From the NCBI RefSeq assembly GCF_041583195.1, contig NZ_JBFHGL010000010.1, positions 1-64,000 on the forward strand: a stretch of DNA of 64,000 bases. Direction: 5' to 3'. Under the pieces are notes generated by a model. It worked only from the letters and a program-made list of their open reading frames with translations. It did not search any database and was not told the DNA's origin. Position numbers and translations under genes: made by a program. Of the stretch, positions 35,764 through 52,288 are shown in pieces; position 1 is the first letter of the stretch, and each line of letters opens with the position of its first letter. This stretch comes from Sulfurimonas sp. (GTDB lineage: Bacteria > Campylobacterota > Campylobacteria > Campylobacterales > Sulfurimonadaceae).

Positions 35764-36231
35764 ATGCAAATTGAAGAGATAATGAAACTGGCTGAAAAAT
35801 GGATTGACTATGGTGTTATAGGTATATTAGTACTGATGAGTATTGTTACATTATGGCTGTTTATTGAGCGTATGATGTTTTACTCAAGTGTTAAAATAGA
35901 AAAGTTTGATCATCGCGATACGTTAGATGCAGTATTGACGGAGAACTTAACGACTATCAGTACTATAGGGTCAAATGCCCCGTATGTAGGTTTGCTTGGA
36001 ACGGTTCTTGGGATCATGATAACTTTTTATTCTATGGGCAATGTTGAACAGATAGATCCTAAGGCTATTATGAGCGGATTGGCACTGGCTCTTAAAGCTA
36101 CGGCTATGGGTCTGGTTGTAGCGATTCCGGCTACCATAGTGTATAACGCTTTAATGAGAAAAGTGGACATAATAATAACCAGATATGACAGATATGTAGA
36201 AGTTATTGAAAAAAGAGAAGTTGATGCCTAA
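35764..36231 (+). CDS. exbB: ExbB-type proton channel subunit
   Basis: 155 residues with three membrane helices (GVIGILVLMSIVTLWLFIE; the conserved NAPYVGLLGTVLGIMITFY; LALKATAMGLVVAIPAT). These are ExbB/TolQ/MotA features, and its short form is common in Campylobacterota. With ExbD and TonB it couples proton flow to outer-membrane receptors. A ModE box lies directly upstream. It overlaps exbD by 8 bases. Confidence 0.92.
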   Translation: MQIEEIMKLAEKWIDYGVIGILVLMSIVTLWLFIERMMFYSSVKIEKFDHRDTLDAVLTENLTTISTIGSNAPYVGLLGTVLGIMITFYSMGNVEQIDPKAIMSGLALALKATAMGLVVAIPATIVYNALMRKVDIIITRYDRYVEVIEKREVDA

Positions 36232-36616
36232 GTGTAGAAAAGCCCGAAAACGTTTCGATCAGATAAATGTTATTCCATTTATCGATATTATGTTAGTGCT
36301 TTTGGTAATGGTGTTAACAACGGCTACATTTATCCGCTACGGTCTTATTAAAGTTGAGCTTCCCTCCTCGGAACAAGCTCAAAAAAAACATGAGCCTAAA
36401 GAGGTAAAAGTGTTTATCAAAGCTGATTCTACACTTTTTTTTAATGATAAAGAGGTTAGTTTATCTGCTCTTAAAGATAAGCTTAGATCTATTGATAAAA
36501 ACGATGTAGTCGTACTTCACAGTGATAAAGCTGCACGCTTTGAGAGTTTTGTTTTTGTAATGGATATACTAAAGGGATTAAACCATACAAAAATGTATAT
36601 AGTGACGAAAGAGTAA
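36224..36616 (+). CDS. exbD: ExbD-type proton channel subunit
   Basis: 130 residues from ATG 36224 (an upstream TTG in exbB is possible). One N-terminal membrane helix carries the proton-path Asp (NVIPFIDIMLVLLVMVL), followed by a periplasmic ExbD/TolR domain. It partners exbB in the overlapping gene. Confidence 0.92.
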   Translation: MPKCRKARKRFDQINVIPFIDIMLVLLVMVLTTATFIRYGLIKVELPSSEQAQKKHEPKEVKVFIKADSTLFFNDKEVSLSALKDKLRSIDKNDVVVLHSDKAARFESFVFVMDILKGLNHTKMYIVTKE

Positions 36617-36651
36617 TATAAATGGAACAAAAAATGTATCTAATTCTTTAC

Positions 36652-36675
36652 CGTTATATACTCAAGTATATAATG
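36652..36675. promoter_or_regulatory. Distal ModE box upstream of tonB
   Basis: CGTTATATA-N6-TATATAATG; one mismatch in the right half. It is the first of a tandem pair whose starts are 51 bases apart. Confidence 0.8.
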
Positions 36676-36702
36676 AAAGAAAATTGGTTTTTTAATATAT
36701 AC

Positions 36703-36726
36703 CGTTATATAGTTAAATATACAAGG
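36703..36726. promoter_or_regulatory. Proximal ModE box upstream of tonB
   Basis: CGTTATATA-N6-TATACAAGG; perfect left half; ends 7 bases before tonB and overlaps its ribosome site, a placement suited to repression. Confidence 0.75.
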
Positions 36727-36733
36727 AGAGAAA

Positions 36734-37444
36734 ATGTCGCCAAAACGTTCATCTAAAGTAATTGCACTTTTTATATCTGTATTTGTACACAGTAGTTTAG
36801 TGGCTGCAAGTATCTTTATGCTTTTAGAACCTGCTCAAACTCAAAGCAGCAGCAATCAGAAAATGGTAGTGACACTTAATGAGTATGTTGCTTTGGCAGA
36901 ACCAAAAGTAGAAAAAAAAGTTGAGAAAACAGAACAGCCAAAACCAAAGGTAGAGCCAAAACCTAAGAAAATAAAAGAAGTAAAAAAAGAGAAGAAAGTT
37001 CCTAAAAATCCTTTAAAAAAAGTAGTCAAAGAGGTTAAAAAACCAGCTCCAAAGCCAGTTGAGACTAAAACAAAAGAGAAAGTAGAGGACAAAATTGTAA
37101 CTAAAGAAATAGTGGCATTAGAAAAGTCTGAAACTGTATCTGTTGAACCTAAAAAAGAAGCTGTAGATCCGACACTGCTGCAGATTATTCGCTCAATGAT
37201 ACAAAAATCTCTTGTTTATCCTTCTATGGCCAGACGTCTTAAAATAGAGGGTATTGTCACAATCGGTTTTAAACTAAATAAAAATGCCCAAGTTGTTTTG
37301 GCTAATGTTGAAAATAGCAGCGGAAGCAGCCTTCTGGATGCTCGTGCACTTGAAACTGTCGAGTCGTTAAGCGGTAGTTATCCAAGCTTATCCAAACCTA
37401 TAGAATTGAAAATACCGATTGCATTTTCATTAAAAAAATCATAA
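36734..37444 (+). CDS. tonB: TonB energy-transducing protein
   Basis: 236 residues: an N-terminal membrane anchor (VIALFISVFVHSSLVAASIF), a long Pro/Lys/Glu periplasmic spacer, and a C-terminal TonB domain (YPSMARRLKIEGIVTIGF). It transmits the ExbBD proton force to TonB-dependent receptors. Two ModE boxes precede it and molA-like and receptor genes follow, so it is a system-specific TonB rather than the general one. Confidence 0.93.
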   Translation: MSPKRSSKVIALFISVFVHSSLVAASIFMLLEPAQTQSSSNQKMVVTLNEYVALAEPKVEKKVEKTEQPKPKVEPKPKKIKEVKKEKKVPKNPLKKVVKEVKKPAPKPVETKTKEKVEDKIVTKEIVALEKSETVSVEPKKEAVDPTLLQIIRSMIQKSLVYPSMARRLKIEGIVTIGFKLNKNAQVVLANVENSSGSSLLDARALETVESLSGSYPSLSKPIELKIPIAFSLKKS

Positions 37445-37454
37445 AGGAGAGATG

Positions 37455-38435
37455 ATGTTACGAATGATATCAATATTAATTTTTACAGTGGTGCTACAAG
37501 CACAGACGGATACGGTTATACCAAAGAAGGTATTTGGTTCTTCACCGCCGATGAACTATCTACTATATGCCATTAATCCTGAGAAGATGGTGGGTTTAAA
37601 CTTTAGTGCAAAAAATCTTAACAATAATGCAGACGAGAAGTTTTTAAAACAAAGTTTTTTAGAGCTGCCTGTTATAGGTTCTTTTCACGGTTCAGGGCAG
37701 GGTATGAACGTTGAGACAATTATAAAGTATTCGCCTGAACTTATTTTAATCTGGAAAGATGATTATTTAAATAGCAAAGTTACAGAGGCTATCAACAGGA
37801 CAAAGATTCCAAGTATCTCTTTAGAGTTTAGAAAAATAGAGTCTATGGCCGACTCAATTTTAAAAGCCTCCGAAGCTATCGGTGAGAAAGAAAGAGGCGA
37901 GATTTTAAGCAGTTATACAAAGGAGCGTATGGAGTATATAAAAAATACGGTTAAAACTCTAAAACCTGTTAAATACTACTATGCTGAGGGTGTTGACGGG
38001 CTTGCGACAGAGTGTGACAAGTCGTTTCATGTTGAAGCACTTAATTTTGCCGGCGGTGAAAACGTACACAAATGTACACAAAGTAACTTAAGAGGGTTAG
38101 AACGCATTACATTTGAGACACTCTTAGGTTATGACCCGGAAGTGATCATTGTACAAAATAGGATGGTTTACAACAAAATAAACTCAAATGACTTATGGAA
38201 ACATTTACGTGTGGTAAAAAACAAAAAGGTTTATTTAGTGCCAAACACACCTTTTCACTGGTTAGACAGACCACCGTCGTTTATGCGCATTATCGGTATA
38301 GAGTGGCTGGTAGAGAAGTTTTATCCTAAATTTTATAAAGGAGATTTAAAAGAACAGACAAGGAAGTTTTATAAGCTCTTTTTAGATGTAGAGCTAAGCA
38401 ATAAAGATATTAATCAAATTTTACAAGGAAAATAA
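37455..38435 (+). CDS. MolA/BtuF-type periplasmic binding protein 1
   Basis: 326 residues from ATG 37455 (AAGGAG 5-6 bases upstream). It has a signal peptide (ILIFTVVLQAQ) then a class III binding-protein fold (VFGSSPPMNYLLYAINPEK, DPEVIIVQNR, PNTPFHWLDRPPSFMR). In Haemophilus the MolA protein of this type binds molybdate or tungstate. Linkage to ModE boxes points to Mo or a Mo complex. It shares the PPSFMR block with the second copy at 42532. Confidence 0.85.
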   Translation: MLRMISILIFTVVLQAQTDTVIPKKVFGSSPPMNYLLYAINPEKMVGLNFSAKNLNNNADEKFLKQSFLELPVIGSFHGSGQGMNVETIIKYSPELILIWKDDYLNSKVTEAINRTKIPSISLEFRKIESMADSILKASEAIGEKERGEILSSYTKERMEYIKNTVKTLKPVKYYYAEGVDGLATECDKSFHVEALNFAGGENVHKCTQSNLRGLERITFETLLGYDPEVIIVQNRMVYNKINSNDLWKHLRVVKNKKVYLVPNTPFHWLDRPPSFMRIIGIEWLVEKFYPKFYKGDLKEQTRKFYKLFLDVELSNKDINQILQGK

Positions 38436-38436
38436 T

Positions 38437-40680
38437 ATGAAAAGAAAAACAATAATTTTGTCACTAGTGGCAACCGCTACATTGATGGCAAACCCTATCA
38501 GTGTAGAAAAAATCGTAGTAGATACCACTGCTTATGAAGATGAGTCTCTTTTTATGGCCGATTCAAATCTATCAAAGGCTGAAAATAAAGAGCGCTTTAC
38601 ATCTAAGAGTATTGCTAAATTATCAACTCATGCTAATATGAACCCGTATACTGTTATAGCATTCTCACCGTCTGTAAACTTTACACCTGTTGATACTATA
38701 GGTTCAAACGAACCTTCATTTCACGATCCTATCCGTATACGCGGTAAAAGCCAATCAGGTCCCGGAGGCGTATATATGATCAATAGTATGCCGCTATCTT
38801 CTAATCCAGGCGGCGGTAAACATATGGTTGATATGGAAAACATAGCATCAATTGATCTGCTAAAGGGTTATTTGCCTGTTGATAAAAATTTAGGTTTTTC
38901 GAGTTTAATAGGAAAAGTTGATCTAAATGTACTTTCTGCTAAAAAAGAAGCAGGGGCGACTATTTCGCAGTCATTTGGTTCGGAAGATTTTAAAAGAACA
39001 TTTTTACGTTTTGATACAGGTAAATTCGGTGATTTTTCAGCTTTTGGATCTATCTCTGTGATTTCAAATGATAAGTATAAAGGTGATGGTGATCTTCAAA
39101 GAGTTAACGGTATGCTTGGTTTAACTTATGAGCCAAACAGCAGTTTTAAAGCAGAACTTTATGCAATTCGCAACAGTGACGAACACCATAATTACGACTC
39201 TTTAAGTTATGCCCAGACTCAAAACCTGGGTGTTTATTTTGACAAAGATTTCGGCACTGTAAAACCTACAACTGCAAACGATGTTGACTATTACGACTGG
39301 AACAGACAGGACTTTATAACTACAAATATTTTTGCAGATATACTTTATAAGCCTACATCTGATGATACTATCACTTTTAAGCCTTACTATAAGCAGGACG
39401 AAGGGGAGATTTTCTTTTCCAAATTTGATGCAACACCTGCAAAACAAGGTGTAGTAAACTGGCAGATGGATCATGACCTTTACGGTGCTGTAGCTGCGTA
39501 TGAGCATAGTTTCAGCCAAGCACTTAAAAGTAAAATAGGGTATTGGTATCATAAACAGCTTCCTCCCGGCCCACCGACTGACAGACGTTTTTACGGTGTA
39601 AATGCTACTGGTGATCTGTTCTTTAAAAAATATGCATCTTTAGCGGATGTTGATCATCACGTACTGCAGTCTCCTTTTGTTGAGATCAGCGGTGATATAA
39701 ACAACTTTATCTATTCTGTAGGTGTGCAGTATCAAAACTTTAAATTAAGCTCAATTAAAAACTATCTAACAGATGCAAACACGAGTTTGGATTATGATAC
39801 GGCAATCGCTACATCCACACTAGATACATGGGGTAGTGTAGATGCAAAAACATTTAAAACATGGCTTCCTTCACTTTATGCGGCATATAAACTTGATGAT
39901 CTAAGTTCAGTATATCTTGATTACTCACGTTCATACGGTTTTGATGTAAATCTTTACCCTACATATACAAGTAACTATGCTAACTTTAAAGGCAAAGGTA
40001 TAACGCTGCAACAACTTTGGAACGACCTTGAACTTGAAACATCTGATAATATTGATCTTGGTTACAAAACAACTGTTGGTGCAGTTACTCTGCAACCAAG
40101 TCTTTTTGTATCTTTTGTAAGTAACAAACAAGCAAATGTTTATGACACTGCTTTAGATGTAAGTTATCCTGCAAATCTGGGTGATGCTGTAGGTTACGGT
40201 GCAGAATTCTCAGCTTACGGCGCTCTTCGTGAAGACTTGGAATTTATGATGGGACTATCATACAACAGCTATTCTTTTGATCAGGACTTTACAACAAGTG
40301 CCACGACGACAAGTAATATAAAAGGCAACCAACTGCCTGATGCACCTAAAGTGATGGCAAAAGGGGCACTTTCGTATTATCTTGATAAATGGACGTTTAC
40401 ACCTAGTGTGCGCTATACGTCAAGCCGTTACGGTGATGTAGAAAACACACAAAAAGTGGATGCTTTTACAGTAGTCGATCTAGATGTATCATATAAAGCC
40501 AAAGGTTTTCTGGGCTCAAAAAACACAATGTTTCGTCTTAGTGCGACAAACATAAGCGATGAAGAATACATTGCAACGATCAACACGCCTGATAATGTTT
40601 TAGCCGCATCTACTACATCTAGTACATATCAAACAGGTGCACCTAGAATGGTGTTTTTTAGCGCGAATCTAAGGTATTAA
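38437..40680 (+). CDS. TonB-dependent outer-membrane receptor 1
   Basis: 747 residues with a signal peptide (ILSLVATATLMA), a plug-domain block (IRIRGKSQSGPGGVYM, IASIDLLKGYLP) and a beta-barrel ending in Tyr after FFSANLR, as outer-membrane proteins do. The TonB box is not obvious. The substrate is unknown; the position between a MolA-like protein and a MolBC-like ABC transporter under ModE suggests Mo uptake. Confidence 0.9.
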   Translation: MKRKTIILSLVATATLMANPISVEKIVVDTTAYEDESLFMADSNLSKAENKERFTSKSIAKLSTHANMNPYTVIAFSPSVNFTPVDTIGSNEPSFHDPIRIRGKSQSGPGGVYMINSMPLSSNPGGGKHMVDMENIASIDLLKGYLPVDKNLGFSSLIGKVDLNVLSAKKEAGATISQSFGSEDFKRTFLRFDTGKFGDFSAFGSISVISNDKYKGDGDLQRVNGMLGLTYEPNSSFKAELYAIRNSDEHHNYDSLSYAQTQNLGVYFDKDFGTVKPTTANDVDYYDWNRQDFITTNIFADILYKPTSDDTITFKPYYKQDEGEIFFSKFDATPAKQGVVNWQMDHDLYGAVAAYEHSFSQALKSKIGYWYHKQLPPGPPTDRRFYGVNATGDLFFKKYASLADVDHHVLQSPFVEISGDINNFIYSVGVQYQNFKLSSIKNYLTDANTSLDYDTAIATSTLDTWGSVDAKTFKTWLPSLYAAYKLDDLSSVYLDYSRSYGFDVNLYPTYTSNYANFKGKGITLQQLWNDLELETSDNIDLGYKTTVGAVTLQPSLFVSFVSNKQANVYDTALDVSYPANLGDAVGYGAEFSAYGALREDLEFMMGLSYNSYSFDQDFTTSATTTSNIKGNQLPDAPKVMAKGALSYYLDKWTFTPSVRYTSSRYGDVENTQKVDAFTVVDLDVSYKAKGFLGSKNTMFRLSATNISDEEYIATINTPDNVLAASTTSSTYQTGAPRMVFFSANLRY

Positions 40681-40685
40681 TATTT

Positions 40686-41711
40686 ATGTTGTTATCAAAA
40701 GAGACGCGATTTTTAATCATAGGCATAATACTTTTAACTTTTTTGGCACTGTTTTCTTTGTTATGGGGACAGTACCCTATAAGTTTTGAAGTGTTTTATG
40801 CATATATTAAAAATATACTTTTCTCAATACCTGTAGATGAATCTTATAATATTGAATTGATTCACAATATTATTGCCGAGATCCGCCTGCCGAGAATACT
40901 CTTGGCAATCCTTATAGGTGCTGCACTTGCAACCAGCGGTGCGGTATTTCAGGCTATGTTTGTAAATCCGCTTGTATCTCCGGGTATTTTAGGTGTGCTT
41001 GCAGGTGCATCTTTTGGAGCAGCGTGTGGAATGCTGATCAGCGAGAACTGGTTTATAGTACAGATTATGGCTTTTGTGTTTGGTTTTATTGCAGTTGGTT
41101 TTGCGGTATTTGTCGGCTCTATGGTTACATCTTCAAGATCAACAGTTATGCTTGTTCTTGGCGGTGTAATTAGCGGTTCTTTATTTACATCTTTACTCTC
41201 TATTGTAAAGTATGTAGCAGATCCATATAGCACTTTACCGGCAATTGTTTACTGGTTAATGGGTTCACTATCAATGGCTCAGATAAATGAGGTTTTACTG
41301 GTAGCTATTCCAATACTGCTAAGTATTGCAGGAATGATCTTTATGAGTAAATATTTTGATCTTTTAAGTCTTGGTGATGAAGAGGCAAAAGCACTTGGTG
41401 TGAATGTTAAACTGGTTCGAATCGTTGCAATTATCTTAGCTACACTTGCAAGTTCGCTTGCAGTGGTGATGGCAGGAATTATCGGTTGGGTAGGGCTTAT
41501 TATTCCACATATAATCCGTATGGCAATAGGCCCTGCACACAGACTGCTGATCCCTTTAAGCGCAATTATAGGCGGGGCATTTTTACTTGCTGCTGATGCT
41601 ATCTCAAGGCTCGCACTCAGTGTTGAGATCCCAATTGGAATTCTTACTTCTCTTATCGGGATACCAATATTTATTATTGTACTTAAAAACGCGAGGGCAG
41701 CATGGAACTAA
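40686..41711 (+). CDS. FecCD/BtuC-type ABC permease (MolB-like)
   Basis: 341 residues, about ten membrane helices. The block EIRLPRILLAILIGAALATS then GAVFQAMFVNPLVSPG is the FecCD/BtuC signature, with GIIGWVGLIIPHIIRM later. It is the inner-membrane channel partner of the ATPase that overlaps its end by 10 bases. Together with the MolA-like protein it resembles Haemophilus MolBCA. Confidence 0.92.
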   Translation: MLLSKETRFLIIGIILLTFLALFSLLWGQYPISFEVFYAYIKNILFSIPVDESYNIELIHNIIAEIRLPRILLAILIGAALATSGAVFQAMFVNPLVSPGILGVLAGASFGAACGMLISENWFIVQIMAFVFGFIAVGFAVFVGSMVTSSRSTVMLVLGGVISGSLFTSLLSIVKYVADPYSTLPAIVYWLMGSLSMAQINEVLLVAIPILLSIAGMIFMSKYFDLLSLGDEEAKALGVNVKLVRIVAIILATLASSLAVVMAGIIGWVGLIIPHIIRMAIGPAHRLLIPLSAIIGGAFLLAADAISRLALSVEIPIGILTSLIGIPIFIIVLKNARAAWN

Positions 41712-42478
41712 AACCTGTATTAGAAGTGAATGAACTTCATTTTGGATATAAAAACAACAAGGTACTAAGAGGCATTAATTTTGATTTGTATAAAGGTGAA
41801 GTAGTTTCCCTTTTAGGACCAAACGGTTGCGGTAAAAGTACACTGATCCGTTTGATGCTTAAACTATTAGATGCAGATGATGTAATAAGTTTAAACGGTG
41901 TCTCTTTAAAAGATTACTCCCATAAACAGATAGCAGAGCATATTGCTTATATTCCGCAATACCATAATGTCCCGTTTAACTATTCCGTACTTGAAATGGT
42001 TGTAATGGGGCGTATATCAAAGCTTGGTTTTTTTGCATCACCTTCAAAAAATGATTATAAGATTGCAAAAGACGCACTGGAGCGTGCAGGTATATTGGAA
42101 CTTCAAGACAGAGCGTTCGGACAACTCAGCGGTGGGCAAAAGCAACTTGTCCTTCTTGCACGTGCCATTGCACAAGAGGTGAATGTGTTTTTTATGGATG
42201 AACCTGTTAACGGGCTGGATTACGGTAATCAGATACGTCTTTTAGAGTTGATAGATTCACTCGCTCGTGATGGATACACATTTTTAAAAACTACGCATTA
42301 TCCGGATCATGCACTGCTGATCTCAAGCCGTGTAGTTGTAATGGACGGCGGTGTGATCATAGCAAACGGGGCACCTGAAGATGTGATCCACAGCGAGATG
42401 ATCGAAGACGTGTACGGGATAAAAGCTGAGATTATCACACACGATACACATAAAAGGTGTGTACCTATTTTTAGGTAG
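41702..42478 (+). CDS. FecE/BtuD-type ABC ATPase (MolC-like)
   Basis: 258 residues. Walker A LLGPNGCGKSTLIR, signature LSGGQKQLVLLARA, Walker B VFFMDEPVNGLD and switch His LKTTHYPDH are present. It powers the overlapping permease. The next gene is preceded by a ModE box, so the operon probably ends here or reads through. Confidence 0.92.
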   Translation: MELKPVLEVNELHFGYKNNKVLRGINFDLYKGEVVSLLGPNGCGKSTLIRLMLKLLDADDVISLNGVSLKDYSHKQIAEHIAYIPQYHNVPFNYSVLEMVVMGRISKLGFFASPSKNDYKIAKDALERAGILELQDRAFGQLSGGQKQLVLLARAIAQEVNVFFMDEPVNGLDYGNQIRLLELIDSLARDGYTFLKTTHYPDHALLISSRVVVMDGGVIIANGAPEDVIHSEMIEDVYGIKAEIITHDTHKRCVPIFR

Positions 42479-42496: not shown

Positions 42497-42520
42497 CGTT
42501 ATATAGTTGAGTATATAACA
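42497..42520. promoter_or_regulatory. ModE box upstream of the second MolA-like gene
   Basis: CGTTATATA-N6-TATATAACA; one mismatch, the best of the six. It ends 11 bases before the ATG at 42532. Confidence 0.85.
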
Positions 42521-42531: not shown

Positions 42532-43500
42532 ATGAGAATTATTATTTTATGGTTTTTACTGCTTGGTTTAAGTATGGAAGCCAGAGTTGTAACAGATGAC
42601 TACGGTAGAAAAGTAGAATTGCCTGAAAAGGTAACTAAAATCTATGCATCCTCACCGCCTCTGAGCATGAGCCTTTTAGCTTTTGATCCTGAGTTGATAG
42701 CAGCACTTAATATGCCGTGGAAGGAAAACCAGAAGCCTTATGTTGGCACTGCATATGATAAACCCGTAGCAGGCGGTTTTTTTGGACAGGGACAGAGACC
42801 TAACTTTGAGGTGCTTGCAAAATCAAAACCGGACGTGATCATTATGTGGGGACGCATGAGTGGTGCAGACAAGATTTTAAAAAAGTTGGAAAAGCTAGGT
42901 ATTCCGGTACTAATGATACGTAACGACTCTATAAAAGATCTTGTAAGCCAGTTTAATCTTTACGGCGAGCTTACCGGTAACACAAAAAGAGCAAAAGAGC
43001 TTGTTGATTACACACAAGAGACACTCTCTCTTATAGATTCGCTTCAAGAGAAGTTGGCAAAACAAAAACCAGTGCGTTACTACTTTGCACAAGGTGTAGA
43101 CGGGCTTTTTAGCGAGTGTAAGGGTTCGTTCCACCTTGAGCCATTTAGCTACAGCTGGGCTGAAAATGCACTTGATTGTGACATGAGTTCAAACTACGGA
43201 ATGGAGAAAATCTCCATAGAGAGTATTGTGATGGCTGATCCTGACGTAATTGTAGCGATGGAGCCTTTTTTTGTAAAAAAGATCAACCAAAACAAACACT
43301 TTAAGTATCTCCGTTCAGTTCGTAAAGGGAAGGTTTATCTTGTCCCATCCACACCATTTAACTACATTACAAGACCTCCGTCATTTATGAGGCTAATGGG
43401 GATAAGATGGCTTATACACAACTTTTATCCGGAGATTTTGGATGTATCGTTTGTATCAGAACAGAAAAGATTTGAAAAAGTCTTTTTTAAAAATTTATAA
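42532..43500 (+). CDS. MolA/BtuF-type periplasmic binding protein 2
   Basis: 322 residues with a signal peptide (IILWFLLLGLSMEA), then a class III binding fold that opens VVTDDYGRKVELPEKVTKIY. It shares YYFAQGVDGL and TRPPSFMRLMGI with the copy at 37455, so the two are paralogues. No own permease follows; it may feed the MolBC pair at 40686. It is the first gene of an operon reaching to modD. Confidence 0.85.
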   Translation: MRIIILWFLLLGLSMEARVVTDDYGRKVELPEKVTKIYASSPPLSMSLLAFDPELIAALNMPWKENQKPYVGTAYDKPVAGGFFGQGQRPNFEVLAKSKPDVIIMWGRMSGADKILKKLEKLGIPVLMIRNDSIKDLVSQFNLYGELTGNTKRAKELVDYTQETLSLIDSLQEKLAKQKPVRYYFAQGVDGLFSECKGSFHLEPFSYSWAENALDCDMSSNYGMEKISIESIVMADPDVIVAMEPFFVKKINQNKHFKYLRSVRKGKVYLVPSTPFNYITRPPSFMRLMGIRWLIHNFYPEILDVSFVSEQKRFEKVFFKNL

Positions 43501-43512: not shown

Positions 43513-45555
43513 ATGAATAAAAATATAAAGTTAAGCTCATTATTGAGTCTTTTGATAGTTAGTAGTGAAGTTATGGCACAGAGCCAAACTTTAGATGTTG
43601 TAAACGTAAATGATACCGGAGTATATCAGCGTGATGATATCTCTTTAGATAGTCCGACAAACATATATAAAGTTGAAAAAAGTACACATGCCAATACTGA
43701 GATCATAACTAAAGAGGAGATCGAAGCGCAAAAAGCAAAAGATGTTTTTGACCTTTTAAATAAAGTAACAGGACTGGATTTAACATATCATGGTCGCCGC
43801 AGCCCTTTTACATTAAGTATGAGAGGAAGTTCAAATATAACTTATATTGTAGACGGTGCGATACTTCCTCCATCTGTGAGTCGTATACTTTACAAGTTGC
43901 CAATGGTAGCTATAGAGGAGATACAGGTTGTTAAAAGTGCTACATCCTTATCAATAGCACCATCGATTAATGTCGGAGCTTCAAACAGCGGCTCAGGAGT
44001 AAATATAGGGTATGTGATAATCCGCACAAAACAGCCGAAAAAGACAGAAGGAATTTTAAGCGCATTTTATGAAAAGGCAGTAAGTCAGCCGAGTGCTAAC
44101 GGGCAGAATCTCTATGCTGGTACACGTTTTGGGGATGCTAACTCTTGGAACGGTTATATAGGTGCGATGCTTTCACGCTTTGATAGAAAAAGTAAAGATT
44201 CATGGTTTGACGGGAGTGACGGTGAATCAGGTATGCTTAACGGAGGAATAAGTAACGGAGCTTTCTCACTTAACTTTATGGCGTATAAAGATAAGGGGCG
44301 TTTTGAGATGCAGCGCGGTGTTACACACGATGATAGTCTTCATAGTGCAAAATGGTATTACGAACCACTGAAAACAAATATTTTTTCTCTTGATGGAAGC
44401 ATGGTTTGGAATGAAAATCATGTGACTCTTTTTTCTTTCGCACAAACAGAGTATGAGCAAAATGAGCATAATGAAGACTTTTTAGATCCAAGTGTACTTT
44501 CTACACGTGATTATGAGGAAAAAACTAAAAACTACAGCCTGCGCCATAATGCACGCTTTGGAAATACTAAACTTCAAATAGGAGGGCAATATGTTGATGC
44601 ACAAGGTTCAGGTTCAGACCTTTTTAACCCGTATATAAAATACGACACTACTATTAAAGGAGCTTCTGCATCTGTTGAACAGACATTATTAGGCGGTGAT
44701 CTTGTATTAGATGCAGGTTATAGATGGGATCAAAAAACAATAGAGGATTCAACAGCTGCAAAATCGCCTGCACTTGCTAAGCTAAATGCAAATAACGGTG
44801 TAGATTTAGCACCTGCATCTATTTTTACTATAGGCGGTGTTTTCGATATTGTTGATTCACATAGTTTGAGTGCGCGTTATTTTTACGGTGATCAAGGTAT
44901 ATCCGGTGATTTCACAATGCAAACACAAGACAGCAGCCCTTTAGATTCGGAGAAGCAAAAACGTTATGAACTTAGTTTAGATTCAAAATTTGCTCCGTAT
45001 TTTAATTCACTAATCACTTACTTTGACACAGATGTCGAAAATGAGAAAAGAGCTACCTCAAATACTTATTTTATCGGTGCTGAAGAATATTATTATTACA
45101 GCCAAGTTGATTCTAGAACCAAAGGTTTAGAGATGAGTGTAAAAGGGAAAGTAGCAGACTCAACAAGCTATAAATTTTCATGGACGAGAATACTTTCCAA
45201 AGAGACTCAGGATTATGCAAACGTAAGTGATGAGGTTGGCGTGATCATTCCTAAAAATACTTTTACGGTACTTATCACTCATACATATAATGACTACCGT
45301 TTTAATATCTCAGGAAAAAATGCAAGTGCGTATACAAGTTCAAAAAGCCCGATGGGCTTATCTAATGCAGATCTAGGCGACTATACTCGTATAGATGCAA
45401 ACATAGCCAAAGACTTTAAGCTTGATAAATACATAGCTACAGCAAAGATTTACGGAAGAAACATAACACACGATCAATACGCTACAAAATACACGACAGG
45501 GTATTACTATGACAGAGGGCGTACATTAGGTTGTGAGTTGAGCTTCTCATTTTAA
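43513..45555 (+). CDS. TonB-dependent outer-membrane receptor 2
   Basis: 680 residues with a signal peptide (LLSLLIVSSEVMAQS). The plug domain is clear (EIITKEEIEAQKAKDVFDLL, TLSMRGSSNITYIVDG, VAIEEIQVVKS) and the barrel ends in Phe (LSFSF). The substrate is unknown; it follows a MolA-like gene under a ModE box. Confidence 0.9.
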   Translation: MNKNIKLSSLLSLLIVSSEVMAQSQTLDVVNVNDTGVYQRDDISLDSPTNIYKVEKSTHANTEIITKEEIEAQKAKDVFDLLNKVTGLDLTYHGRRSPFTLSMRGSSNITYIVDGAILPPSVSRILYKLPMVAIEEIQVVKSATSLSIAPSINVGASNSGSGVNIGYVIIRTKQPKKTEGILSAFYEKAVSQPSANGQNLYAGTRFGDANSWNGYIGAMLSRFDRKSKDSWFDGSDGESGMLNGGISNGAFSLNFMAYKDKGRFEMQRGVTHDDSLHSAKWYYEPLKTNIFSLDGSMVWNENHVTLFSFAQTEYEQNEHNEDFLDPSVLSTRDYEEKTKNYSLRHNARFGNTKLQIGGQYVDAQGSGSDLFNPYIKYDTTIKGASASVEQTLLGGDLVLDAGYRWDQKTIEDSTAAKSPALAKLNANNGVDLAPASIFTIGGVFDIVDSHSLSARYFYGDQGISGDFTMQTQDSSPLDSEKQKRYELSLDSKFAPYFNSLITYFDTDVENEKRATSNTYFIGAEEYYYYSQVDSRTKGLEMSVKGKVADSTSYKFSWTRILSKETQDYANVSDEVGVIIPKNTFTVLITHTYNDYRFNISGKNASAYTSSKSPMGLSNADLGDYTRIDANIAKDFKLDKYIATAKIYGRNITHDQYATKYTTGYYYDRGRTLGCELSFSF

Positions 45556-45567: not shown

Positions 45568-46203
45568 ATGCAGGCAAAAAAGAGATATCCGGGAGGGAGT
45601 GATCCTAAAGGTTTTGATTCAATAGTTCGTGAGGTTTTTGCACCGATCTATCCAGTTATAGCGGAGCAGATACTCTCAAAAACACAAAAAAAAGATGGCA
45701 TGTGCTTAGATGTAGGATGCGGTACAGGTGCCCTTGGACGCGCTGTAGCAAAACTTTCAAACATGAATATTACTTTTTTTGATCAATCACCTGAGATGAT
45801 AGATCTATCTATAAGTTATGCCCATGATGAAAATCTGATCGAGCGAAGTGAGTTTATAGTGGGTGATATTCATGACTTGGCACTAAATGACAATAGTGTT
45901 GATCTTATTGTCAGTCGCGGTTCTGTTCCGTTTTGGAGTGATTTGGAAATGGCATACAAAGAGCTGTTTCGTGTTTTGAAAAAAGGAGGGCATGCATATA
46001 TTGGCGGCGGCTTTGGAAATGAAGAGCTGCGTGAAGAGATAGTTCGTACTATGAATGAGCGCAATAAAGAGTGGCGCAGCCCGTTTAAAGATAAAGCCCG
46101 CAAGCATCAGGAGATAATGCCGTCTATTTTAAATGGATTAAATAGCAGCTATTCCAATATTATTAATGATGAAAGTGGCTTTTGGGTTCATATAGTTAAA
46201 TAA
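45568..46203 (+). CDS. SAM-dependent methyltransferase 1
   Basis: 211 residues. Motif I CLDVGCGTGALGRA and the acidic loop ITFFDQSPEM are class I SAM features, with VDLIVSRGSVPFW as a later block. The substrate is unknown. Inside a TonB-receptor operon it may modify a metal-binding small molecule; arsenic or selenium style methylation is another option. Confidence 0.82.
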   Translation: MQAKKRYPGGSDPKGFDSIVREVFAPIYPVIAEQILSKTQKKDGMCLDVGCGTGALGRAVAKLSNMNITFFDQSPEMIDLSISYAHDENLIERSEFIVGDIHDLALNDNSVDLIVSRGSVPFWSDLEMAYKELFRVLKKGGHAYIGGGFGNEELREEIVRTMNERNKEWRSPFKDKARKHQEIMPSILNGLNSSYSNIINDESGFWVHIVK

Positions 46204-46212: not shown

Positions 46213-46812
46213 ATGCAAAACAATAGACAAAACAACAGTTGTCAAAATGGAAAAATAAACTCATTTACGCAAGTAAACCAGATGCAAAAACAGCCGAATA
46301 AATTCCGTTTTGGAGGGGAGGATGTACGTGTGGTTAATTCGATGATAGATATTATATACCCGCCTGTACCTTTTCCCTCAAACAAGATCTACAAAGCACT
46401 TGGGGAGGTGAAAATTCGCGAGATGGTAGATCATCACCACCAGCTTTTACTAAATACAAAGGTCGGGAAGCTTTTCCCTGCTAATGAAGAAGCATTGAAG
46501 ATGGCTATAGATAAAAGTGCAGACTTTTTTGTCGAAGCACTTGGAGGCGATGATGTTTTTACATCTGCTCACGGAGAACCGCATCTAAGAATGCGCCATT
46601 TTAAGATCCCCATTGATGAAAGCGATAGAGAGATTTGGCTGGCGATGTATAAAAAAACACTCAAAGAGATATCTTTTCCTGAAGAACACTTAGAGGAGTT
46701 TTGGAACTGGATTGAGCCGTTGTCAATACGTATGATCAACCGTCGTACAAATATGGATGAGATTAAACGTCACCATTGGCATGAGATTAAATCAGGATTT
46801 GTAAGCGCATGA
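46213..46812 (+). CDS. Truncated-globin family protein with N-terminal extension
   Basis: 199 residues. Residues about 60-190 are a truncated haemoglobin (KIREMVDHHHQLLL, HLRMRHFKIPIDESDREIWL with the probable proximal His and a distal-side Trp). The first 50 or so residues are polar and Asn/Gln-rich with one Cys. Such globins bind oxygen or NO. Its place in a molybdenum-uptake operon is unexpected. Confidence 0.82.
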   Translation: MQNNRQNNSCQNGKINSFTQVNQMQKQPNKFRFGGEDVRVVNSMIDIIYPPVPFPSNKIYKALGEVKIREMVDHHHQLLLNTKVGKLFPANEEALKMAIDKSADFFVEALGGDDVFTSAHGEPHLRMRHFKIPIDESDREIWLAMYKKTLKEISFPEEHLEEFWNWIEPLSIRMINRRTNMDEIKRHHWHEIKSGFVSA

Positions 46813-47783
46813 AGGTAGGTATTTTTTTATTGACGGAGAACTATAGTAATTCAGCACATCTAAGCATAGCAAACGACATAGAACTTGGAGTTTATGCAGA
46901 GCAGTTGGGTTTTGATGAAGTATGGTTTGCAGAACATCATTTTAATGCTTTTAGTGTAATACCGAGTCCGACACTTATGATGGCCGCTCTTGCAGCGCGC
47001 ACAAAGCATATACGTATCGGGAGTGCTGCATTTTTAGCACCTTTTTATCACAATACGCGCTTGTCTGAAGAGATAGCTACGCTTGATAATTTATCTTTTG
47101 GACGGATAGATGCAGGTTTTGCCAAAGGCGGTTTTGCTTACGATGTAGAGTCTTTTGACAAAAGCCCGCAAAACTTACGTCAGGAGATGTTTGAGAATGT
47201 ACAAAATATTGATCAAACACTTTGTAACAACTGGCTATTAGAGCCAAAACCTCTGCAAGCAAAAGTTCCTTTTTATATTGCGACTTTCTCTACTGTTGAG
47301 ACGATTGAGTTTGCCGCAAAAAATGGATACGGCCTGATGTTTTCACAAGGGGCTACTATTAAGCAGTGTGAAGATGCTCAGAAGATTTATAAACATATAG
47401 CAGGTTATGAACCCCAGATCGTTTTAATGAGAGTGTTTTGTATAGAAGAAAATTATGAACGTGCCTATAACAAAGCTTTACCTGAGACAGACCATTTTAT
47501 TAAATGTATGCGTGCAGTTAAATCACGTCAGATGCAACCTACTTTTAAGAAAGAGAATTATGAGGCTCTTTTAAAACAAAGGTTTAGCTTTTTTGATGGT
47601 AAAAATTTTTTAGATAATGCAATTTTAGGCAATGAAAAGGAGTGTATAGAGCAGATAAAAAATATAAATAAGAAAATAAAAAACCTTCATTTAGTTTTAA
47701 AAGTATCATCGTCTAATGCTATGCAGACAAGAGGAATGCTAAAGACATTTAGCCAAAAAATCAAACCAAATATAAAGGATTAA
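46809..47783 (+). CDS. Luciferase-like flavin monooxygenase
   Basis: 324 residues of the LLM class (VGIFLLTENY, GFDEVWFAEHHFNAFSVIPS, TKHIRIGSAAFLAPF, GRIDAGFAKGGF). These enzymes use reduced flavin and oxygen to oxidise small molecules, including opening C-S bonds. It overlaps the globin gene by 4 bases. The substrate is not evident. Processing of an imported ligand is an inference. Confidence 0.85.
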   Translation: MKVGIFLLTENYSNSAHLSIANDIELGVYAEQLGFDEVWFAEHHFNAFSVIPSPTLMMAALAARTKHIRIGSAAFLAPFYHNTRLSEEIATLDNLSFGRIDAGFAKGGFAYDVESFDKSPQNLRQEMFENVQNIDQTLCNNWLLEPKPLQAKVPFYIATFSTVETIEFAAKNGYGLMFSQGATIKQCEDAQKIYKHIAGYEPQIVLMRVFCIEENYERAYNKALPETDHFIKCMRAVKSRQMQPTFKKENYEALLKQRFSFFDGKNFLDNAILGNEKECIEQIKNINKKIKNLHLVLKVSSSNAMQTRGMLKTFSQKIKPNIKD

Positions 47784-47786
47784 TAG

Positions 47787-49763
47787 ATGAAAAAAAGTTT
47801 ACTAGTTTTATCCGCGGCGGCAACATTTGCTTTAGCAGAAGGAAGTTACACATTAGGGCAGGTTAGTGTTGGTGCTAATACGGCAGATGATATCAATATG
47901 ATAGAAGAGAGCATATCTTCAGACACTATTTCTAGGGACAGCTCTTTGATCGTTTCAGAAGCACTTGATAACATAAGTGGTATTAACCAGGATGTTCAAG
48001 GCGGACGCGGTGAAGGTACTTTGTATATTAGAGGTTTTGATGCAAAACGTATAGGTGTATTTATTGACGGTATTCCAATCTACGTACCGTATGACGGTAA
48101 TTTTGATTATGTCCGTTTTTTAACTAGCGATGTAGCTAAGATAGATATATCAAAAGGTTACTCGTCTGTAGCATACGGCGGAAATACGATGGGTGGGGTT
48201 GTAAATATCGTTTCTAAAAAGCCAACTAAAGAGTTAGAGGGAAATATCAAAGCAACTATGGTTTTAGATAGTAATACTCAAATGGCCCGCCATATTGAGA
48301 CGTTAAACGTTGGAACTATGTTAGACGGTTTTTATGCACAACTGGGCGCTTCATATTCAAAACAAAATCACTTTCGTATGAGTGATGATTTTCAAGCGGT
48401 AGATACACAGCCTGAGGGCGAGAGACTTCGTTCAGAGAGTGAAGATAAAAAAGTAAGCCTTAAAGCCGGATATGTAGCTGATGATATGAGTGAAGTAGCT
48501 GTAAACTATGCTAATCAAAAAGGTAAAAAACAACAACCTCCTGTAACAGATACCGATTTTGCTAAAAGTAAAAACTGGGATTGGCCGTATTGGAATAAAG
48601 AGACTATATCTATTACGGGACAAAAGAATTTTGGAGCAAGCTATATAAAAGCACTTGCTTATTATGATAAAAGCGAAAACTCTTTATATAGTTATGATGA
48701 TGATACATTCAGATCATTTACTCAAAAATGGGCATGGAAAAGCCGCTATGACGATTACAGTTACGGTGCCCGTTTAGAATACGCTACTGAGTTTGGCAGC
48801 AACTTTTTAAAAGTGGCAGCTAACTATAAAAAAGATGTACACCGCGGATATGATATTGAAAAAGATGATTCAGGTGAGACACTTACTGAGAGATATAAAG
48901 ATTATACTGTCTCTGTAGGTATAGAAGATATCTATACTATTTCCTCAAGTTTACAACTATTAGCTGGGATCAACTACGATAGACGTAAAGGGCAGGAGAT
49001 ATTTGACACAAATGATGCAAACCTTGATATGCTAAACCTTACATCTGAAGATGCTTTGAGTCCGCAGGCTGCACTTATCTATGCACTGGACTCTAACTCT
49101 AAAGTACGTGGGAGTATATCTCGTAAGACCTATATGCCGTCTATGAAAGACAGATACTCTCGTAAACTTGGAACTGCCGTACCGAACGTTAACTTGAAAA
49201 ATGAGATAGCTACACACTACGAACTTGGGTATACAAGAGTTAAAGACTCTCTCTCAACAGGTGTAAATGTTTATTATACAAGGGTAAAAGATGCGATTCA
49301 AAACAACCCTTGGGATCAAAATACATCGTTAAGCCAGAACCAAAATGTCGGTACGTTTGATCATCGTGGTATAGAGCTTGACGTAGAGTATAGTTTTGAT
49401 GGAACTGATGTAGGTGGAAACTACAGCTACATTAATATAAAAGATACTAAAAATACTGGTGCGAAGATAGTAGATGTACCAAAGCACCAACTTTTTGCAT
49501 ATGCGCGTCAAGAAGTAGGTGCAGGTTTTGCTGTATATGCAAATATGAAAGTAAGAAAAGGTGCGTACGAGAATAAAATGGATGCTACATTTGTCATCAA
49601 CCCTACTTTTACAACATATGATCTGAAAGTTATATATAACCCTTTAGAGGAGTTTGCGGCAGAGATTGGCGTGAAGAACTTGTCTGATAAACTAGTTCGC
49701 TACGATTATGCGTATCCTATGGCAGGACGTGAATTTTTTGCTTCTTTAGAGTATAAATTCTAA
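47787..49763 (+). CDS. TonB-dependent outer-membrane receptor 3
   Basis: 658 residues with a signal peptide (LLVLSAAATFALAEGS), a plug domain (SEALDNISGINQDVQGGRGE, IDISKGYSSVAYGG, NTMGGVVNIVSKKP) and a barrel ending in Phe (SLEYKF). It is siderophore-receptor-like. It ends one base into the next gene, a ModA/TupA-like protein, which suggests an oxyanion or metal-complex substrate. Confidence 0.9.
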   Translation: MKKSLLVLSAAATFALAEGSYTLGQVSVGANTADDINMIEESISSDTISRDSSLIVSEALDNISGINQDVQGGRGEGTLYIRGFDAKRIGVFIDGIPIYVPYDGNFDYVRFLTSDVAKIDISKGYSSVAYGGNTMGGVVNIVSKKPTKELEGNIKATMVLDSNTQMARHIETLNVGTMLDGFYAQLGASYSKQNHFRMSDDFQAVDTQPEGERLRSESEDKKVSLKAGYVADDMSEVAVNYANQKGKKQQPPVTDTDFAKSKNWDWPYWNKETISITGQKNFGASYIKALAYYDKSENSLYSYDDDTFRSFTQKWAWKSRYDDYSYGARLEYATEFGSNFLKVAANYKKDVHRGYDIEKDDSGETLTERYKDYTVSVGIEDIYTISSSLQLLAGINYDRRKGQEIFDTNDANLDMLNLTSEDALSPQAALIYALDSNSKVRGSISRKTYMPSMKDRYSRKLGTAVPNVNLKNEIATHYELGYTRVKDSLSTGVNVYYTRVKDAIQNNPWDQNTSLSQNQNVGTFDHRGIELDVEYSFDGTDVGGNYSYINIKDTKNTGAKIVDVPKHQLFAYARQEVGAGFAVYANMKVRKGAYENKMDATFVINPTFTTYDLKVIYNPLEEFAAEIGVKNLSDKLVRYDYAYPMAGREFFASLEYKF

Positions 49764-50563
49764 TGAAAACAGCTTTGTTAAAACTACTGCTTATATTAAT
49801 TTGCACGGCATCTATATATGCAAAAGAGGAGCCTATTCGCGTTGCAGTTATAGGCGGCGTTGTAATAAGCGGTATGTGGGAGAAAGTTGCCAATGCTTTT
49901 GAAGAGCGTTACGGTATTGAAACCGAACTGGTTATAAGCGGTAACAAAAAACAGCTTAACAGCTTTGTGAGAAAAAAGCAAGTTGATTTTATAACAATGC
50001 ACTCTAGTGATACTATCAGTAATCTGGTGGCAGACGGATTGTTTGAACAACTTACTCCATGGATGAGAAACTCGCAGATGTTAGTAGGAGTGAAAAATAA
50101 CCCAGCCGATATAACTTTAAGAGACTCTCTTAGAGTAGCATTAGAAAAAATTTCAAGAACTAAAACTCCTTTTTTAATCCCTCCAAGCGGAGGGACAATT
50201 GAAGTTCTTCACGGATTAAAAGAACAATATAACTTTAATCCGGATATAACTTTTTTAAAAACAAAAAGAGGGTTCTTAAAAGAGGTGGCAGACAAAGGCG
50301 GATATACACTTTTTGGTGTTATTCCGTTTTTAATGAAAAAGCATCATCATCCAATGATTACAGGATATTACAGTGAAGATGAAAATCTTAAAAGACCGTA
50401 TCTTGCGTGTATTGTTGAAAAAACAAAAACAACAAAACAAAAATTTGAAAAAGCTAAAAAGCTACTTGAATTTTTGACTTCTAAAGAGGTTCAAACACTT
50501 ATTTTAACGCATAGACTAGATGGATTTAAAGAATATCCGCTTTTTTTTGCAATTAAAAAATAA
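49763..50563 (+). CDS. ModA/TupA-like periplasmic binding protein
   Basis: 266 residues with a signal peptide (LLKLLLILICTASIYA). A class II binding fold is seen (IRVAVIGGVVISGMWEKVAN, AFEERYGIETELVISG, IPPSGGTIEVLHGL). It resembles molybdate/tungstate binding proteins distantly. No permease is adjacent; it overlaps the third receptor gene by one base. Tungstate or molybdate is the likely ligand, with low certainty. Confidence 0.7.
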   Translation: MKTALLKLLLILICTASIYAKEEPIRVAVIGGVVISGMWEKVANAFEERYGIETELVISGNKKQLNSFVRKKQVDFITMHSSDTISNLVADGLFEQLTPWMRNSQMLVGVKNNPADITLRDSLRVALEKISRTKTPFLIPPSGGTIEVLHGLKEQYNFNPDITFLKTKRGFLKEVADKGGYTLFGVIPFLMKKHHHPMITGYYSEDENLKRPYLACIVEKTKTTKQKFEKAKKLLEFLTSKEVQTLILTHRLDGFKEYPLFFAIKK

Positions 50564-50583
50564 AAATAATAAAAGGATTAATA

Positions 50584-51393
50584 ATGGGATTGATACAAAC
50601 AAACTTGGACAGTTTAGGTTTTGCAAGTTTATATTCGCAGCAGATGGACGTTTCTACGTTTAAAGGTAAAAACAGTGAAGATTGGGATAAACGTGCAAAC
50701 AGCATGAACAATAATGTTCACAATAGCATATATACAAAAACTTTCATTGATAAAATAGATACGAGTGATGCTGATTCACTTTTAGACGTAGGGTGTGGTC
50801 CAGGTACTATATCACTGGCTATAGCCGATAAACTCTCAAATGTTTATGCTCTTGATTATTCATCCGGTATGCTTGATTGTGTTGAGAAAAATTGTGAAGA
50901 AAAAAAGATAGATAATATCTCAACAATAAATAAGTCCTGGTATGATGATTGGGATGAGGTTCCAAATGCCGACATTGTCGTAGCTTCACGTTCAATGGAG
51001 GTAAAAGATATTAAAGATGCACTGATGAAATTAAACTCAAAGGCAAATAAAAGAGTATACCTGACTACGAAAGTCGGAGGAAGTTTTATAGATAACAAGA
51101 TCTTAAACCAACTAAGCAGAGAGATCTATCCAAGGCCTGATTATATATATCTTGTAAATGTATTACATAGTATGGGGATATATGCAAAAGTTGATTTTAT
51201 TAAAAGTGAAAACACAAAGTTTTCAAGTTCAAGAGATGATGAGTTTGTAGAAAAAGTCGCTTGGAGTTTGGGCGAACTATCCAACGATGAGAAAGAAGTT
51301 TTAAAAAAATATTATAATACAACTTATAAATTTAAAAAAACTGATGAATATATGGATTGGGCATTAATATCTTGGGATGTAAAGTCGCTATAA
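50584..51393 (+). CDS. SAM-dependent methyltransferase 2
   Basis: 269 residues. Motif I LLDVGCGPGTISLAIAD, then VYALDYSSGMLD and NADIVVASRSMEV are class I SAM features. It is only distantly like the methyltransferase at 45568. The substrate is unknown. It lies between the binding protein and modD in the ModE-controlled operon. Confidence 0.82.
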   Translation: MGLIQTNLDSLGFASLYSQQMDVSTFKGKNSEDWDKRANSMNNNVHNSIYTKTFIDKIDTSDADSLLDVGCGPGTISLAIADKLSNVYALDYSSGMLDCVEKNCEEKKIDNISTINKSWYDDWDEVPNADIVVASRSMEVKDIKDALMKLNSKANKRVYLTTKVGGSFIDNKILNQLSREIYPRPDYIYLVNVLHSMGIYAKVDFIKSENTKFSSSRDDEFVEKVAWSLGELSNDEKEVLKKYYNTTYKFKKTDEYMDWALISWDVKSL

Positions 51394-51439
51394 TTTCAAT
51401 TTATAATATTTAGAATAAAAACTTATTTATGGAGAAAAA

Positions 51440-52288
51440 ATGTATAGATTGAATGATAGTGAGTTATTAAGATATATTGAAGAGGATGTACCGTATTTGG
51501 ATCTTACAACGCATCTACAAGATATTGAAAATAAAAAAGCAAGACTAAAAATTATAACTAGAGAAGAGTTATTAGTTTCATGTATGGAAGAAGCTTGCAG
51601 AATTGTAGAATTATTGAACTGTAAAGTTGATAGTTTTATTCCATCAAAGCAAAATGCAGGAAAAGGTGATGTTTTGCTTACTTTTTCAGGGGATTATAAC
51701 GATGTTCATAAAGCTTGGAGATCAGCACAGGTACTACTTGAATATAGTTGTAAAATGTCTACATATACACATAGTATGAAAAAAGAGATCGAGAGTGCAA
51801 ATAAACACTGTGAACTATTAACTACAAGAAAAACATTTCCTCTTGCTAAAAAGTTTTGCATAAAGTCTATTATGAGCGGTGGAGCAATGCCACACAGACT
51901 AAACTTGGGTGAGACTATAGTTTTCTTTAATAATCACAGAATCGTTTATAACACCAATCAAGAGTTCTACGAGAATATTCAAAAGTTTAAAATAAAAGTG
52001 CCTGAGAAGAAAATAGTTGTAGAGTCTGACAATTTTGAAGATGCTGTGCAGCTGATGAAGTATGGTGTTGATGTTTTACAGCTTGATAAAGTAGAGATAG
52101 AGTTATTAAAAACTATTGTGAAATACAAAGAAGAAAATTATCCAAATGTTAAAATATTGGCATCTGGCGGTATAGATATAAACAATGCTGCAGAGTTTGC
52201 ATCTACTGGCATAGATGGAATAGTAACAAGTAAACCTTACATATGCGGTATGGCAAATATTGGTACAAAAATGGAACTTATCGCATAA
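51440..52288 (+). CDS. modD: ModD, QPRTase-like molybdenum protein
   Basis: 282 residues of the nicotinate-nucleotide pyrophosphorylase fold (EEDVPYLDLTTHL, LEYSCKMSTYTHSM, TTRKTFPLAKKFCIKSIM, ILASGGIDINNAAEFAST). ModD members of this family occur in molybdenum operons; the reaction is not established. It closes the operon from 42532, 46 bases after the methyltransferase. Confidence 0.85.
   Translation: MYRLNDSELLRYIEEDVPYLDLTTHLQDIENKKARLKIITREELLVSCMEEACRIVELLNCKVDSFIPSKQNAGKGDVLLTFSGDYNDVHKAWRSAQVLLEYSCKMSTYTHSMKKEIESANKHCELLTTRKTFPLAKKFCIKSIMSGGAMPHRLNLGETIVFFNNHRIVYNTNQEFYENIQKFKIKVPEKKIVVESDNFEDAVQLMKYGVDVLQLDKVEIELLKTIVKYKEENYPNVKILASGGIDINNAAEFASTGIDGIVTSKPYICGMANIGTKMELIA

Follow-up and report, generated by a model that had tools for sequence, protein, structure and literature searches.

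We analysed a locus of Sulfurimonas sp. (assembly GCF_041583195.1; 2.38 Mb in 22 contigs, rated 99.91% complete) that combines molybdate genes with a TonB-dependent uptake system. The window, to which all coordinates refer, is the 64,000-nucleotide stretch from positions 1 to 64,000 of contig NZ_JBFHGL010000010.1. Between nifHDK and a nifA-like gene it carries modE and a mod gene run, followed by exbB-exbD-tonB, three TonB-dependent receptors, two periplasmic binding proteins and the parts of an importer, with copies of a ModE-type palindrome (ModE boxes) standing ahead of several of these genes. A preliminary description had read positions 35764-52288 as a TonB-energised molybdenum uptake locus. 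All the genes it named were found, all on the + strand, and exbB-exbD-tonB, both binding proteins, the FecCD-type permease with its ATPase and the three receptors are present by profile matches; its span left out modE and the mod genes (31323-35699), and its gene list did not name the TupA-like protein, the methyltransferases, the globin, the monooxygenase or modD. The features are as follows.

31323..31346, ModE box before modE (1 mismatch; 31 bp to the start codon)
31378..32160, + strand, modE, a DNA-binding domain and two Mop stretches (TIGR00637, 101.6 bits, above the cut-off of 98.5; TIGR00638, two stretches)
32176..32199, ModE box before modA (2 mismatches; 24 bp to the start codon)
32224..35699, + strand, modA, a Mop-like protein of 133 amino acids, modB, a TauE/SafE-like permease and a modC-like ATPase
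35727..35750, ModE box before exbB (2 mismatches; 13 bp to the start codon)
35764..36231, + strand, exbB (TIGR02805, over cut-off)
36206..36616, + strand, exbD (TIGR02804, over cut-off)
36652-36675 (1 mismatch) and 36703-36726 (2 mismatches), two ModE boxes before tonB (58 and 7 bp to the start codon)
36734..37444, + strand, tonB (PF03544; TIGR01352, over cut-off)
37452..38435, + strand, binding protein 1, MolA-related (Peripla_BP_2)
38437..40680, + strand, TonB-dependent receptor 1 (barrel PF00593, 105.6 bits, over cut-off; plug 20.9 bits, under 23.9)
40686..41711, + strand, FecCD-type permease (PF01032, 271.9 bits)
41702..42478, + strand, importer ATPase (PF00005)
42497..42520, ModE box before the second gene run, which starts at binding protein 2 (1 mismatch; 11 bp to the start codon)
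42532..43500, + strand, binding protein 2, with a more distant relation to MolA (PF01497, Peripla_BP_2)
43513..45555, + strand, TonB-dependent receptor 2 (plug, 45.8 bits; no barrel match)
45568..46203, + strand, S-adenosylmethionine (SAM) methyltransferase 1 (PF08241)
46213..46812, + strand, truncated globin (PF01152; aligned with relatives)
46809..47783, + strand, luciferase-like (flavin) monooxygenase (PF00296, 140.8 bits; aligned with relatives)
47787..49763, + strand, TonB-dependent receptor 3 (PF00593 and PF07715, both barrel and plug)
49763..50563, + strand, TupA-like oxyanion-binding protein (NF041772, 33.7 bits, below cut-off; tungstate-binding 3lr1, E 1.2e-5)
50584..51393, + strand, SAM methyltransferase 2 (PF13649; aligned with relatives)
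51440..52288, + strand, modD (TIGR01334, 199.5 bits, above the cut-off of 178.85)

The mod run was assigned from TIGR01256 and TIGR02141, both over cut-off, a modC model under its cut-off, and PF01925. Its TauE/SafE (TSUP) permease (34054-34845), which has relatives near the module in L099, L102, L103, L104, L112 and L123, could be an extra oxyanion permease. A TonB system is represented in full by ExbB (one of three exbB genes over cut-off genome-wide), ExbD, TonB and receptors with plug and barrel, the plug of receptor 1 being below cut-off and receptor 2 having neither a barrel match nor a relative among solved structures at E 0.001. The gene set of a MolBC-A-type importer is also complete, with a FecCD permease, an ATPase and a MolA-related Peripla_BP_2 protein, the relation being weaker for binding protein 2; the TupA-like gene has no adjoining permease of its own. 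Two operons are likely, one spanning tonB to the ATPase and the other binding protein 2 to modD, because the genes in each overlap or sit at most 46 bases apart. Around the locus, nifN, nifE, nifS and nifD score over cut-off and nifU under its cut-off, the labels nifH and nifK were assigned by reading the sequence and not from a profile model, and the nifA-like gene, three reading frames after modD, reaches 528.2 bits against a cut-off of 528.85. G+C content is 37.5-39.0% at 40-50 kb and at most 37.2% in every other 2-kb block of the window.

We scanned for the ModE pattern CGNTATAT-N8-ATATANCG, allowing up to two mismatches, with shuffled sequences and the reversed pattern as controls. The window holds seven matches where 0.29 are expected, a number reached by none of 100 shuffles. 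Six of them are intergenic and lie 7-58 bp upstream of the start codons of modE, modA, exbB, tonB (two boxes) and binding protein 2, while the seventh, at 51470 inside modD, is probably due to chance. Sites with one mismatch number three in the whole genome, all at the locus; at two mismatches the genome-wide count (23) equals that of the reversed control (22), so the weaker boxes rest on their position. The earlier statement that the system lies under or behind ModE boxes was borne out, with the qualification that none of the receptors has its own box; they belong to the two gene runs that start at the tonB boxes and the binding-protein-2 box. A ModE regulator is itself encoded at the locus, and molybdenum (ModE) control of the dedicated TonB system, as predicted from these sites, is well supported. 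Elsewhere in the genome, a 139-residue frame (G000:C6:84525-84776) contains a second ModE-type DNA-binding domain, at 43 bits and below cut-off.

Sites for iron-type regulation were sought with two Fur consensus patterns that have no proven positive control, which makes this a weak test. An E. coli-type Fur box gave no match at up to three mismatches, and a Fur-type 7-1-7 pattern gave nine matches in the window against 13.2 expected, which is no excess. One Fur-type match with three mismatches (42533) coincides in part with the start of the binding protein 2 gene, and the six Fur-type sites with at most one mismatch in the genome all lie outside the window. A sigma-54 pattern matched twice against 0.59 expected, in neither case near the locus, in a scan that also missed any nifH promoter and is therefore uninformative.

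To follow the module in relatives, we searched for binding protein 1 at E 1e-20 or better in 149 genomes from 61 genera of the same order, and found it in 15 genomes and nine genera. The module is patchy, since the seven other genomes sampled from the same genus all lack this protein. Fifteen of 20 fetched stretches hold a binding-protein match, and among these 15, judged by similarity to the window proteins, 12 have the FecCD permease, 13 a receptor, nine the monooxygenase and six the globin; boxes with no more than one mismatch are present in 11. The arrangement varies: in L037 the set adjoins nifHDK and modABC, whereas L031, L038 and L041 have an operon of binding protein and receptor-2-type receptor behind a perfect box, with no mod gene in the stretch read, which adds to the support for molybdenum control of the TonB system. 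Across 14 relative genomes, the pattern with at most one mismatch occurs at 35 sites against 11 for the reversed controls. Among them are perfect boxes ahead of modAB in G074 and G032 (L067, L068). Others lie at a further exbB-exbD-tonB set (L075), an operon of receptor, FecCD and ATPase (L070), a counterpart of methyltransferase 2 (L071), and exbB-exbD-tonB next to a pair of receptor 1 and globin (L083). Of 125 receptors with a plug domain in 12 whole genomes, 13 have a box no more than 5 kb away, against 1.55 expected, a figure calculated with a rounded genome size and from a sample in which G027 alone contributes 35 of the 125 receptors. Three Sulfurospirillum-group genomes also have ModE boxes, one of them perfect, between two divergent operons of unknown function (L076 3717, L079 4093, L080 4047).

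We then extended the comparison by scanning named genomes with an alignment of 14 binding proteins (A1), which returned 209 relatives, the best 80 of which correspond to 74 loci; these are loci and not 74 genomes (e.g. L126/L127, L136/L140), and many end at contig ends. They span Campylobacterota, Desulfobulbus, Geobacter, Syntrophus, Rhodomicrobium, Halothiobacillus, Pseudomonas lopnurensis and others, the nearest named relatives by binding protein being Campylobacterales such as Sulfurovum, Sulfurimonas and Sulfuricurvum, and 64 of the 74 include a relative of receptor 1, 2 or 3. Conservation of the boxes in relatives, which the preliminary description had named as a check, was found: at up to one mismatch the 74 loci hold 67 boxes, in 45 loci and nine of them perfect, against none for the reversed pattern, and at two mismatches 143 against eight. 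Sixty of the 67 precede a module, mod or porin gene at a distance between -60 and 350 bp, a zone that makes up 22.4% of the bases; three of the other seven are inside named genes and four are elsewhere. The genes behind the 60 encode the binding protein (13), a receptor (11), globin (9), methyltransferase (9, a count that mixes families), TonB (4), an OprD-type porin (4), ModE (3), ModA (3), DUF364 (2), the monooxygenase (1) and FecCD (1). Position 3, which the pattern leaves free, is T in 87% of boxes, in agreement with the E. coli ModE consensus as quoted in a passage of PMC545781. In loci of other lineages scanned at up to three mismatches (L123, L144, L151, L152, L153, L155), boxes have two or three mismatches or are absent. 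Predicted box control is thus supported for Campylobacterota and delta-type bacteria, not for every carrier of the binding protein.

What the system carries was approached through the binding proteins. For binding protein 1, the Sulfurospirillum deleyianum protein 4pag scores E 6.2e-77 and the MolA chain 3psa E 1.4e-11, third after 4pag and 4ovk; the predicted model of binding protein 1 (predicted local distance difference test score, pLDDT, 88) gives Z 37.2 to 4pag and 23.9 to MolA 3psa. For binding protein 2 the values are E 3.8e-52 for 4pag and 8.2e-7 for 3psa, the latter with no single stretch passing alone. The term MolA-like used earlier is apt for the first protein and looser for the second. 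Sequence and fold are compatible with a molybdenum cargo without proving it. We considered naming the ligand from the fold and rejected this, as the fold is common to iron, nickel, haem and B12 binders and suits iron and nickel chelates too. The cargo is most likely a molybdenum (or tungsten) compound, perhaps on a carrier, a reading that draws on regulation and gene company.

Several results weigh against that reading. In the fold comparison of binding protein 1, 4hn9 (iron), 4ovk and 4mo9 (FepB) outrank MolA after 4pag, and YiuA (iron) and CeuE, at Z of about 22, come within 2 Z of it; in the sequence comparison of binding protein 2, 4m7o and 2etv, whose titles state iron binding, score above MolA. 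The closest NCBIfam models of the receptors, all below cut-off, are siderophore and haem groups, and those of the FecCD-type permease likewise point to siderophore groups. No box with at most one mismatch is present in 29 of the 74 loci, and some genome-wide boxes fall inside unrelated genes (e.g. L065, L066, L073, L081), which, with the 11 control sites noted above, makes single weak boxes unsafe. Finally, MolBC-A of Haemophilus influenzae is, in the passages describing it, a low-affinity importer at high molybdate, the opposite of a scavenger (PMC4031551).

The preliminary description went further and had the metal arrive bound to a carrier or at trace levels and serve nitrogenase. A carrier is plausible, although none was seen: genome-wide searches for canonical siderophore synthetases gave no matches for non-ribosomal peptide synthetase (NRPS) condensation domains, none for IucA/IucC and five for dihydroxybenzoate (DHB)-AMP ligase, none over cut-off. 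A canonical metallophore made by this bacterium is not predicted from these matches, non-canonical routes are possible, and a carrier, if any, would come from neighbours or from an unusual pathway. As to nitrogenase, nifD is over cut-off in 29 of the 149 genomes, comprising 12 of the 15 with the binding protein and 17 of the 134 others (Fisher p 1e-7, not corrected for kinship); of the three binding-protein genomes outside this group, G014 reaches 645 bits against 653.55, and G027 and G065 have no match listed. Conversely, 17 of the 29 nifD genomes lack the binding protein. This genome also has six matches to the molybdopterin family PF00384, which includes NuoG-type proteins without molybdenum, and there is no sign of an alternative nitrogenase, because the nifD model finds nifD and nifE alone. 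What stands of the claim is an association: nitrogenase is a likely user of the imported molybdenum, and not the sole one.

The accessory genes differ between lineages. In relatives, unlabelled genes adjoining the module form families, for which one representative each pointed to an OprD porin, FmdE, and DUF364/DUF4213 ('putative heavy-metal chelation'). With lineage taken from record titles, and L108 ('bacterium') and L116 ('Proteobacteria') counted as Campylobacterota, a monooxygenase or globin gene is found in 36 of 45 Campylobacterota loci and two of 29 others (Halothiobacillus, Rhodomicrobium), and FmdE or DUF364 in none of the 45 and 15 of the 29. Thirty-eight of the 74 loci have monooxygenase or globin, 15 have FmdE or DUF364, 21 have neither and none has both. 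This split largely follows phylum and is confounded with it; it fits oxygen-dependent versus oxygen-independent handling of cargo. A broader and quite speculative idea, which we rate as doubtful, is that the TonB system induced by molybdenum starvation in distant bacteria imports an organic molybdenum chelate, from other organisms or of non-canonical origin, and that the metal would be freed by altering the carrier, through a flavin monooxygenase that a globin supplies with oxygen in oxygen users and through FmdE and DUF364 in anaerobes. OprD-family porin genes occur in 12 of the 74 loci (e.g. L115 5309-6685), with four boxes upstream, and ModE control of this porin is possible. Two ideas about single parts were rejected: methyltransferase 2 is not one conserved family (L037, L042 and L071 are 75, 62 and 37% identical, the other three of six aligned relatives 18-21%), and the TupA-like protein, which recurs in G089 (L043) and in one of the 74 loci, is not a core part.

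On balance, the reading we favour, with a probability of about 0.64, is that ModE controls and TonB energises the uptake of a compound of molybdenum, or possibly of tungsten. From the gene content, the boxes, their positions and their conservation, all directly observed, we infer that ModE acts as a repressor here, that the cargo contains molybdenum or tungsten, possibly on an organic carrier, and that its processing or release falls to the monooxygenase, the globin and the methyltransferases. At low cellular molybdate, ModE would leave its boxes, and expression of the two gene runs (tonB to ATPase, binding protein 2 to modD) would follow. ExbB-ExbD-TonB would power the three receptors, the MolA-related proteins would catch the cargo in the periplasm while the TupA-like protein takes free oxyanion, and the FecCD-type importer and ModBC would carry it into the cell, where the molybdenum would supply nitrogenase and molybdopterin enzymes.

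The locus might instead supply iron and molybdenum side by side, with ferric siderophores entering through the receptors and the FecCD importer and molybdate through ModABC and the TupA-like protein, all under ModE. A similar cluster of Acidithiobacillus ferrooxidans was read in this manner in a section of PMC2631029, and the siderophore-leaning receptor and permease models, together with the closeness of binding protein 2 to iron-type proteins, would suit it. Yet ModE boxes precede the module in many relatives, 73 of the 74 loci show neither nifH nor nifD within stretches of up to 21 kb, two of the 15 binding-protein genomes (G027, G065) have no nifD match, and the window shows no Fur-type excess; we regard this explanation as unlikely.

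Less likely again is that the receptors concentrate free molybdate or tungstate. ModA and the TupA-like protein are oxyanion binders by family, the canonical synthetases were not found, and free-ion scavenging would suit extreme molybdenum scarcity. Against this, TonB-dependent receptors usually handle cargo whose size or scarcity makes porins inadequate, the ModE-boxed OprD-family porin of relatives could already serve for free ions, and the monooxygenase, methyltransferase and globin genes would be left unexplained. It is very improbable that the system imports something needed when molybdenum is lacking, such as vanadium or a cofactor for molybdenum-free enzymes. ModE control alone would fit this, and a passage of PMC9542535 states that three genes for TonB siderophore receptors in Azotobacter vinelandii are VnfA1-dependent, but no alternative nitrogenase was matched in the genome, and modABC adjoins the module, whose own products include TupA-like and ModD proteins.

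Other features of the window stand apart from this argument. An aldo/keto reductase and a flavoprotein resembling aspartate oxidase and fumarate reductase are encoded between modD, a relative of quinolinate phosphoribosyltransferase (QPRTase), and the nifA-like gene (52495-55242), and a SIR2-like domain protein downstream of the latter (57738-58559). Between nifH and nifD lies a gene for a 119-residue protein without a Pfam match (27778-28137); L037 also has a 119-residue frame there, compared by position and length. Genes for proline dehydrogenase/aldehyde dehydrogenase, a PutP-type symporter and glutamate 5-kinase sit inside the nif region (9042-14873).

Accounts of molybdate uptake usually begin at the periplasm. 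In some bacteria the import of molybdenum is probably an active process, perhaps with the metal on a carrier, instead of leakage. If so, many microaerobic, anaerobic and nitrogen-fixing bacteria would be rivals for molybdenum at the outer membrane in the way that others are for iron, and molybdenum carriers may be common in nature. The old question of whether there is an outer-membrane molybdenum transporter, and for which carrier, becomes testable in culturable Sulfurospirillum, one species of which has the solved group member 4pag.

Among the matches listed in the open-licence literature, we found no ModE-controlled TonB/ExbBD-TonB system, no ModE control of such modules across groups and no experiment on TonB-dependent molybdenum uptake. 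The idea itself is partly in print (Acidithiobacillus in 2008, Azotobacter in 2015), and what is new is the conserved ModE control of a dedicated TonB system. The nif-linked 'Fe-Mo transport' cluster of A. ferrooxidans, as presented in its section of PMC2631029 (2008) and interpreted there as iron plus molybdate uptake, resembles the present locus in lying beside nif and in holding TonB receptors, a TonB system, partial ATP-binding cassette (ABC) importers and a truncated globin; the likeness is one of gene content, not sequence. Both clusters hold binding proteins of two kinds, three there with one ModA-like, and that cluster is described as a genomic island, which the patchy spread here also suggests. 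It differs in having two receptors instead of three and a Fur box symbol in the figure legend; its globin is interpreted as an oxygen sensor, and the cluster section does not mention ModE boxes. In Azotobacter chroococcum, Achr_39320-39290 comprise a 'TonB receptor potentially for molybdate' and an ABC transporter beside modG, modE and modA1B1C1, again in a diazotroph; the passages on it (PMC4465626, 2015) describe no dedicated exbBD-tonB, monooxygenase, globin or ModE boxes, and state that A. vinelandii lacks that receptor gene. The Haemophilus MolBC-A system shares a related binding protein (3psa) and a type II importer with the locus, in a paper that does not mention TonB. A dedicated outer-membrane route for molybdate is also described, in the passages on it, for ModA-IcmP of the Pseudomonas aeruginosa type VI secretion system (PMC8602904), which differs in using a secreted ModA and a metalloproteinase-type outer membrane protein. 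The nif cluster of Zymomonas mobilis, in the part of PMC8594446 that covers it, unites receptors, modD, modE and a SIR2-like gene as here, a likeness by gene content and not by sequence, and its two TonB-dependent transporters are annotated as 'iron-associated'; for TonB receptors of nif clusters that now carry this label, the Sulfurimonas locus offers an alternative reading.

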